33,531 nucleotides of DNA from Longimicrobium sp. (GTDB lineage: Bacteria > Gemmatimonadota > Gemmatimonadetes > Longimicrobiales > Longimicrobiaceae): assembly GCA_036389795.1 (NCBI GenBank), contig DASVWD010000013.1, forward strand, positions 1 through 33,531, written 5' to 3'. A program made the position numbers and the translations under genes. Below the pieces are notes generated by a model that searched no databases, was not told the DNA's origin, and saw only the letters and a program-made list of their open reading frames with translations. This document shows, one piece after another, positions 2,500-23,501 of this stretch (position 1 is its first letter; each line of letters begins with the position of its first letter).

Positions 2500-6507
<4,008 letters not shown>

Positions 6508-10882: not shown

Positions 10883-12366
10883 ATGGCGATTCCGAAGCTG
10901 CCCCTACCACCCCTGGTCGACCGCGAGCGGGAATTGAAGGAGCTGCGCTCCATGGTGGAGCGGGGCGGGCCGGCGCTCGCGCTGCTGTACGGCCGCCGGC
11001 GGGTGGGAAAGACATTCCTCCTGGACCACGCCTTCGAGGGGCGGCGGTTCTTCTACTTCCTGGCGGGCGACACCACGCCGGAGCTGAACAAGCAGGAGCT
11101 GCTGCGCGAGATCGCCCCTCTCCTCTCCGACCCCGCCGACGCGGACCCGTCGCTCTTCCCGAGCTGGCGCAACGTGTTCCGGCTCTTCGCCGACCTGGCC
11201 GGCGAGGGGCCCTTCACCGTGGTGCTCGACGAGTTCCAGTACCTGCTGGGAGGCGAGGAGGACATCGCCTCCCAGCTCATGGCGGTGTGGGACCGCGAGC
11301 TGCGCGGGCGCCCGCTGGTGCTGGTGGCTGCGGGTCGGCGGTGGGGACCATGGAGCGGCTGGAGCACGGGGCAGGCCCGCTCTACGGGCGCTGGAACTGG
11401 GCCGCCCGGCTGCGCCCGTTCGACTACTTCGACGCCGCGCGCATGCTCGGCGAGCGGCCGGCGCGCGAGAAGGCGCTGGCGTACGGCATCCTGGGCGGCA
11501 CGCCGCGCTTCCTGGCCATCCTGCGCCCCGGCGAGCCCCTGGCGGGCCGGGCGGCCGAAACGGTCCTCTCGCCGCGCGGCGAGGTGCACATCCAGCTGGA
11601 GCGGGTGGTCGAGCAGGAGAAGGGAATCCGAGACCCCGCCGAGTACCGCGCCGTTCTCGCCGCGATCGCGGCCGGGAAGACGCAGATCGAGGAGATCGCC
11701 GGCGCCACGGGGCTCGGAGACCGGCCGTACGTGGTCCGCCGGGCCGTGCGCGTGCTCGAGGAGCTGGAGCTGGTCTGGCGCGAGCGGAACTTCGACGCAC
11801 CTCCCAAGGCGGCGTACCGGTACCGCATCGCCGACAACGCGGTGCGCTTCTGGTACCGGTTCGTGCACCCGAACCGCAGTCTGCTGGAGACCGGCGACGC
11901 GCTGGGCGTCTGGGAGGCGCGCGTGGAGCCGCTCCTGAACGACTACATGGGGAAGGTGTTCGAGCGCCTGGTGCGCGAGGCCTTCACCCGCTGCCACGCC
12001 TCCTGGGGTCTGCCGGCCGCCGGCGAGTGGGCGCGCTGGGAAGGGCGCGACCGCAACCGGCGCAGCATCGAGGTGGACCTGGTGGCGCGGCTGGAGGACG
12101 GCCGCATCCTCGCGGGCGAGGTCAAGTGGTCGACCCGCCCGGTGGGGAGCGACGTGCTCACCGACCTCCTGCGCGACCTCGACGACCTGGGGCGCTCCGG
12201 GCAGGGGTGGGCCAGGGACGCCCTCTCCGACTCACGCTCCGCGGGCTTCCTCTTCGTCGCCTCGACGGCGTTTACCGCGGAGTTCCGGACCCGCGCGAGG
12301 AAGGACCCGCGCATCCGGCTGGTGACGCTGGAGGAACTCTACGCGGGGGCCGCCCCCTCGCCTTGA
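10883..12366 (+). pseudogene. AAA ATPase + DUF234 (PD-(D/E)XK-like) protein, frameshifted
   Basis: Two overlapping frames together give one protein of about 494 residues. The first frame carries Walker A GRRRVGKT (37-44) and Walker B VVLDEFQ (113-119), as in the archaeal-type ATPase_2 family. It reads correctly to about 11323. Family logic then requires CGSAVGTMERL, which is found one frame over starting at 11329, so one base appears to be missing near 11324-11328. The second frame continues with a winged-helix-like segment and a C-terminal DUF234 domain, with EVDLV and GEVKW (12070-12129) matching a PD-(D/E)XK nuclease core. No slippery heptamer is evident. It could be a true decay mutation or a sequencing error. 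Inverted repeats flank it. Confidence 0.85.
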
Positions 12367-17980: not shown

Positions 17981-18014
17981 CCGCCGCCGGACCCGCGGAT
18001 GGGTCCGGCGGCGG
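17981..18014 (-). terminator. Terminator of the Cys-rich precursor gene
   Basis: A 14-bp perfect GC stem (17981-17994 with 18001-18014) and 6-base loop lie 18 bases downstream of the precursor stop on the minus strand. A short TTT follows on that strand. Confidence 0.75.
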
Positions 18015-18032: not shown

Positions 18033-18359
18033 CTACTGGTCGCAGTACGGCGGGCAGGTGAACTGGTCGTAGGTCATGCACGGCTCCTCACACGAGTAGC
18101 AGGAGTAGTAGGCGCAGGTGTACTCGTTCTGGCAGGTGTACTCGCAGCTGAGGCAGGTAGCGTCGTCGCAGGTGTTCTGGCACGTCGCGGGGCAGGTGGC
18201 GCAGCAGGTGTTGCAGCACGTACAGCAGCACGGGCAGCAGCAGCAATACGGACAGTACTCCTGCTCGTTCGCGCGCACGGTGCCGCCGCGTTCGGCGCCA
18301 CGGGCGGTGTCGAAGGACTCGACCACCAGCGCGTCCAGGTCCAGTCTGAGCTTCTTCAT
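18033..18359 (-). CDS. Candidate RiPP precursor, extremely Cys-rich (24 Cys)
   Basis: A 108-residue peptide. The ATG at 18359 has AGGAG seven bases upstream. Residues 1-35 are a charged leader (MKKLRLDLDALVVESF, then GGTV) without cysteine. The remaining 73 residues contain 24 Cys, first as clusters (YCCCC, PCCC, TCC, TCC), then as short repeats ending in T-C or S-C (CPATC, CQNTC, CEYTC, YSC). The leader matches that of the 69-aa peptide at 23292 and resembles pinensin-type lanthipeptide leaders common in Longimicrobium. T/S next to C would suit lanthionine formation, but metal binding is an alternative. No LanB, LanC, LanM, radical SAM or peptidase-transporter gene is nearby. Confidence 0.82.
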   Translation of the reverse strand: MKKLRLDLDALVVESFDTARGAERGGTVRANEQEYCPYCCCCPCCCTCCNTCCATCPATCQNTCDDATCLSCEYTCQNEYTCAYYSCYSCEEPCMTYDQFTCPPYCDQ

Positions 18360-18496
18360 CGTGCGCTCCTCTCGTGTCTGGATGACGCCGCCGGCTCGCG
18401 CGCGGCGGCCGAGTGCGATCGGGCACCTGTCCGCTCCGACTGGACGGCACTCAAGCCGCCGGGACGCACTCGACGCCGGATCGCGGGGGCTGACAC

Positions 18497-23291: not shown

Positions 23292-23501
23292 ATGAAAAAG
23301 ATTCGGCTGGATCCCGAGAATCTTCGTGTTGAATCGTATGTCGTCAACGACGAAGACAGGTTGCGGCCCGGAACAGTTTTCGGCCACAGTGAGGGCGAGT
23401 CGATCGTTACCTGTAAGAGTTGTGATTTCAGTGGGTGCGACCGGACCTGCGTCAAGACTTGCTACGATTGCGAGCCGGTGCCCACCGCGATGACCGTGTA
23501 G
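23292..23501 (+). CDS. Candidate RiPP precursor (pinensin-type leader)
   Basis: A 69-residue peptide. The ATG at 23292 has GAGGTGA upstream. The leader MKKIRLDPENLRVESY is followed by a GTV motif, then a core with six Cys: SIVTCKSC, FSGC, DRTC, VKTC and YDC. Four of the six are directly preceded by Thr or Ser. The leader aligns with the 24-Cys peptide encoded at 18359-18033. Lanthipeptide-like modification is inferred; no modification or export gene is present within the window. Base composition is lower in GC than the flanks, and 20-bp direct repeats bracket the gene. Confidence 0.85.
   Translation: MKKIRLDPENLRVESYVVNDEDRLRPGTVFGHSEGESIVTCKSCDFSGCDRTCVKTCYDCEPVPTAMTV

Follow-up and report, generated by a model that had tools for sequence, protein, structure and literature searches.

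In the pinensins, LanB is split into two proteins and LanC is related to the cyclase domains of LanM enzymes (PMC7268733). For the prochlorosins and synechococsins (ProcM and SyncM), 29, 79 and up to 143 precursors have been reported (PMC10783134). Closer to the organism studied here, the genome note for Longimicrobium terrae lists three antiSMASH regions with lanthipeptide, with no detail (PMC7291104), and no description of the present Gemmatimonadota precursor families was found in the literature searched, an absence that is no proof in itself. The peptide examined below, with 24 Cys, most likely (at a probability of roughly 0.78) serves as an orphan substrate for a trans-acting class I lanthipeptide pathway resembling that of the pinensins.

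The window (the whole stretch of DNA analysed, 33,531 nt from a Longimicrobium sp. contig) carries the gene on its minus strand at 18033..18359, encoding 108 aa plus a stop codon. Residues 1–35 (18255..18359, minus strand) form a leader without Cys, MKKLRLDLDALVVESFDTARGAERGGTVRANEQEY, delimited by the family consensus and by the difference between leader and core identity. The core begins with a Cys block, CPYCCCCPCCCTCCNTCC (residues 36–53, 18201..18254, minus strand; 12 Cys and 2 Thr in the translation), and continues with residues 54–108 (18036..18200, minus strand), which hold 12 Cys and 11 Ser/Thr in the TCxx spacing that is the norm for the family. The composition given in the preliminary description, with 24 Cys, none of them in residues 1–35, and a region of 73 residues (C36–Q108), is borne out in full by the translation. 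A plus-strand frame overlaps the gene; its coding score of −0.57 per codon, against +0.12 for the minus-strand ORF, makes it look like a chance antisense reading. The ORF for the 24-Cys peptide is real, as first observed.

The ribosome binding site reported earlier is present (AGGAG, 18366..18370, minus strand, 5 nt before the ATG), while the possible promoter did not hold up, as the promoter scan gave no sigma-70-type promoter for this gene. What had been called a strong terminator is a very stable hairpin 3′ of the stop codon (17981..18014, minus strand; 14-bp stem, −40.3 kcal/mol, z −5.15) that lacks a U tract and is therefore not classed by the scan as an intrinsic terminator. Elsewhere in the window, a single-module NRPS-like gene (2500–6507; condensation, adenylation, carrier and thioesterase-like, judged from the translation) lies upstream of a TonB-type receptor-like gene, and an ATPase-like gene at 10883–12366 is seemingly split into overlapping plus-strand frames (10883–11938 and 11287–12366), as if frameshifted.

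Although treated singly at first, the peptide belongs to a set of at least 142 such gene products. A search of its own genome with the whole peptide matched 128 places, and a leader HMM located at least 142 distinct loci sharing the leader, spread over 60 of 285 contigs; this figure is a lower bound, counted on retrieved sequence stretches. Arrays hold 94 of these loci and 48 are singletons, with an SD-like site at 138 of the 142. The leader consensus is MxKLxLxLDxLxVESFxT...GTVxG. Mean pairwise identity is 51% among leaders and 20.5% among cores (18% for shuffled cores), and in 105 aligned leaders the third codon position is the most variable (0.42 versus 0.26 and 0.24), as expected for a constrained protein. 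At 141 loci there are two or more Cys after residue 25, and 141 different cores were counted. The window itself holds a second, divergent member at 23292..23501 on the plus strand (69 aa, 5 Cys). Two other variants were seen among the retrieved loci. A divergent subfamily lacks the GTV motif and has several tandem copies with CCTGCxSGCGI cores (L129/L168, G000:C31), and at L164:1291-1386 (G000:C84) the leader runs into a stop codon immediately after GTVHG and has no core, possibly a broken precursor.

The preliminary description had pointed out that Cys tends to follow Ser or Thr. This pattern is well beyond chance, with 12 Ser/Thr-Cys dipeptides in the core where shuffling of its residues gives 4.0 (p < 5e-5). 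Twelve of the 13 core Ser/Thr have Cys as the next residue, and within residues 54–108 ten of the 12 Cys come directly after Ser/Thr in a TCxx repeat. The family as a whole has 555 such dipeptides where 214 are expected, and consecutive ones are mostly four residues apart (181 observed, 49 expected).

The family leader is of pinensin type by sequence comparison, and the 24-Cys member is assigned to it through homology with its paralogues rather than through the published model. With NF038180, the NCBIfam model for the pinensin family lanthipeptide leader (cut-off 24 bits), 18 loci of the genome score above the cut-off, and 40 of 58 sampled family members are matched with E values of 10 or lower (4e-8 at best). 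The 24-Cys peptide is below the cut-off and absent from the 99 matches in its genome with E up to 1, and no family in Pfam or NCBIfam was hit when the peptide was run through hmmscan. A leave-one-out leader HMM, built on 90 paralogues with the window copies excluded, gives it 60.2 bits, and 34.6 bits for the second window precursor. The original reading as a RiPP precursor with a pinensin-type leader is thus partly supported, by way of the paralogues and not by a direct match of the peptide to the model.

Leader and LanB occur together. Among 61 relatives, the leader profile was positive in ten (G000, G001, G002, G006, G007, G008, G009, G014, G015 and G020), and LanB was above cut-off in exactly the same ten. 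Such an overlap would arise by chance once in C(61,10) cases, or once in C(21,10) = 352,716 when counted within the organism's family, figures that ignore shared ancestry; since the relatives are not phylogenetically independent, the co-occurrence represents fewer events than genomes. Of 246 genomes sampled across the class, nine were leader-positive, all nine had LanB, and three more had LanB only.

Modification by another RiPP class (radical SAM thioethers, a class V system of HopA1 type, class II LanM, or MNIO) would be suggested by the Cxxx-type spacing, which gives weak matches to models of radical SAM targets, by a HopA1-LanC locus and two LanM in the same genome, and by the similarity of the LanC extension (described below) to MNIO partner proteins. 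The distribution of the SPASM, HopA1 and LanM enzymes and the make-up of the cassettes make it quite improbable. SPASM enzymes do not track the leader, since a search for the SPASM domain in six of the ten genomes that have the leader (the organism's own, G001, G002, G008, G015 and G020) gave no match, and HopA1 is limited to three genomes, one of them leader-negative. Both LanM accompany their own Gly-Gly-leader precursors, no further enzyme gene recurs in the cassettes of the relatives, and no MNIO-like gene was noticed in them.

Other lanthipeptide-type loci were observed in passing. One stretch of the same genome (L036, G000:C28:5000-24900) is a class II lanthipeptide locus in its own right, where two genes for LanM-type synthetases of 1095 and 1043 aa are accompanied by roughly twelve small precursors with Gly-Gly leaders. 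In another (L037:9896-13594, G000:C285), LanC, a HopA1-domain protein and an unassigned 375-aa protein follow one another, an arrangement similar to a class V lanthipeptide synthetase set.

The preliminary description had proposed searching for LanB- and LanC-type genes elsewhere in the genome, and they were found on contig C225, where one LanB (PF04738) adjoins a separate LanB elimination ORF (PF14028) and LanC. No precursor was found on C225, which stops 335 bases past LanC. Neither precursor of the window has a LanB nearby, and the 24-Cys gene is far from any LanB in the assembly, with no modifying enzyme near it. A recurrent enzyme neighbouring the scattered precursors of the genome was looked for, and none was found. 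On contig C206, an array of 13 precursors is followed by genes for an ABC exporter, an HlyD-type adaptor and an S8 protease.

The missing linkage is seen in relatives. In G015, G009, G008 and G002, genes for LanB, LanB-C and LanC lie side by side with precursors and exporter genes (for the last two genomes, the contig or retrieved stretch stops inside the gene set), and LanB, LanB-C and LanC adjoin precursors in G014. G006 and a second locus of G008 have another kind of LanB cassette, accompanied by one or two local precursors. The local precursors of these variant cassettes consist of CSxC repeats (L105:12825-13400 in G008, CSNCSDCSNCSDC...; L107:11000-11242 in G006, CSGCSGCSSCSGC...), and the two from G008 have a more divergent leader. 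Two genomes of other families have clusters with a single precursor: LanB, LanB-C, LanC and precursor in G174, and fused LanB, precursor, LanC, ABC and HlyD in G255. These single-precursor clusters suggest a small operon as the earlier state, with the precursors later multiplied and scattered in the organism's own family.

The cyclase domain of LanC is LanM-like (TIGR03897, E 1e-69 over LanM positions 542–932). Eight orthologues all share residues C309, C356, H357 and H224; we take the first three to be the zinc ligands expected of a LanC, with the zinc or catalytic roles of all four assumed by reference to NisC. At its C-terminus the protein also carries a conserved extension, some 240 residues long and predicted with a pLDDT of 85, for which no Pfam family was above cut-off. 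Its best structural match is chain A of TglHI (Foldseek E 9e-6; Z 13.1 over 206 residues, rmsd 6.2), which is TglI as judged from length and domain order, and NGO1945 also matches (Z 11.3). The second half of the extension gives Z of about 6, unremarkable alone, against the RREs of lasso-peptide B1 proteins, PqqD, NisB and TbtB. TglI comprises a helical domain and an RRE required for binding the substrate peptide (PMC10880893), and NGO1945 is a DUF2063-RRE partner of an MNIO (PMC12452194). From these predicted folds, a leader-binding role may be proposed for the LanC extension.

The resemblance of the extension to TglI, a protein of a PEARL pathway, together with the thiopeptide enzyme TbtB being the closest PDB sequence to LanB and the small elimination protein having a sub-cut-off match to pyridine synthases, raises the question of whether LanB is a PEARL-type ligase, or the elimination homologue a thiopeptide-type cycloaddition enzyme, with a product that is not a lanthipeptide. 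We know of no elimination domain and no LanC in PEARL systems, whereas an elimination protein and a LanC are both present here and the LanC retains its zinc ligands, so that this explanation is very improbable.

The core of the 24-Cys member is atypical. It is the most Cys-rich of the 141 cores in the genome and has the largest excess of Cys by a wide margin, with 24 Cys against 13 Ser/Thr; the next-largest excess is 3, and in 127 of the 141 cores Ser and Thr together equal or outnumber Cys. It has seven CC pairs, close to the 7.1 predicted by its Cys content, and is the only core of the 141 with three or more CC. Two G008 peptides (L140) share the Cys block (CCVCCCDPCCCTCCNTC and CCCCCCPCCC) with no synteny between their genes and the window gene, and its recurrence at an unrelated site shows that it is no sequencing accident. 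The C-terminal half of the core resembles paralogues bearing TCxxTCDDxTC.

With 12 Cys and 11 Ser/Thr, the C-terminal half fits (methyl)lanthionine rings, as far as composition can indicate, while the N-terminal block (12 Cys, 2 Thr) cannot, on the same count, be fully converted to lanthionine. As the core has only 13 Ser/Thr, at least 11 of the 24 Cys would stay as thiols, disulfides or metal ligands, and this excess leaves room for a product that is partly free-thiol or metal-binding. The same excess, and the conservation of CCCCPCCC in G008, would also suit an unmodified metallothionein-like peptide, metal-binding or redox-active, with Zn, Cu or Fe-S bound by the 24 Cys and a leader that is nothing more than an N-terminal region. 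However, the leader is common to 141 other peptides, with cores down to only 2 Cys, so the trait of the family is the leader and not metal binding. The leader is also tightly associated with LanB/LanC, and the peptide has no Pfam metallothionein match (small Cys-rich families are easily missed by profiles). An unmodified peptide is on these grounds unlikely.

For modification, ring pattern, leader removal, export and function under the preferred lanthipeptide reading, we infer a route in which the conserved leader would be bound by the synthetase, probably via the RRE fold of LanB and the second RRE-like domain fused to LanC. The split LanB (a glutamylation protein and a separate elimination protein) would dehydrate Ser/Thr of the core, and LanC would add Cys thiols onto the dehydro-residues, possibly turning the C-terminal TCxx stretch of the 24-Cys peptide into a (methyl)lanthionine ladder. 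The S8 subtilase encoded next to the 13-precursor array probably cuts off the leader, perhaps near the conserved GTV motif, and the ABC exporter and HlyD-type adaptor beside the same array probably export the product. One enzyme set would serve at least 142 precursors with different cores. Judged from sequence, the common leader very probably hands these peptides to a single, distant class I lanthipeptide enzyme set, and the organism seems to operate a combinatorial factory for peptides.

Provided that these enzymes modify the precursors, the genome would amount to a naturally occurring combinatorial library of class I lanthipeptides, and libraries that large are reported, in the literature searched, only for class II cyanobacterial systems. 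The substrate tolerance of leader-guided LanB/LanC enzymes would then be testable on 141 natural cores, with the 24-Cys member as the limit case, having too few Ser/Thr for its Cys. A further asset is the LanC, which is predicted to carry its own leader-binding domain.

By its enzymes and leader type, the family belongs, at the level of sequence homology, to a class I, pinensin-like lanthipeptide system. It shares with the pinensins of Chitinophaga pinensis the leader type, the LanB split in two and the LanM-related LanC, and differs in its phylum, in its 142 or more precursors scattered genome-wide and in cores of up to 24 Cys. The extra RRE-like domain is stated for the present LanC alone. 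In predicted fold this extension, a helical domain plus RRE, is like TglI and the DUF2063-RRE partners of MNIO enzymes (PMC10880893, PMC12452194), and unlike them it is fused to a LanC cyclase. No report of a LanC-RRE fusion was found in the literature searched, and both this fusion and the scale for a class I system look new. With the prochlorosins the system has in common one enzyme set, a common leader, hypervariable cores and many precursors distant from the enzyme. Those are class II LanM products with Nif11 leaders, however, whereas class I LanB and LanC and a pinensin-type leader are found here, and there was no Nif11 match among 58 family members. More tentatively, and with some doubt, the system could be pictured as a class I counterpart of the prochlorosins, in which one split LanB and one LanC with a fused domain like the leader-binding MNIO partners serve more than 140 dispersed precursors per cell, the product of the 24-Cys member combining a lanthionine ladder with a Cys block that keeps free thiols and probably binds metal. 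The system works like a prochlorosin-type system without being one, because leader and enzyme class differ.
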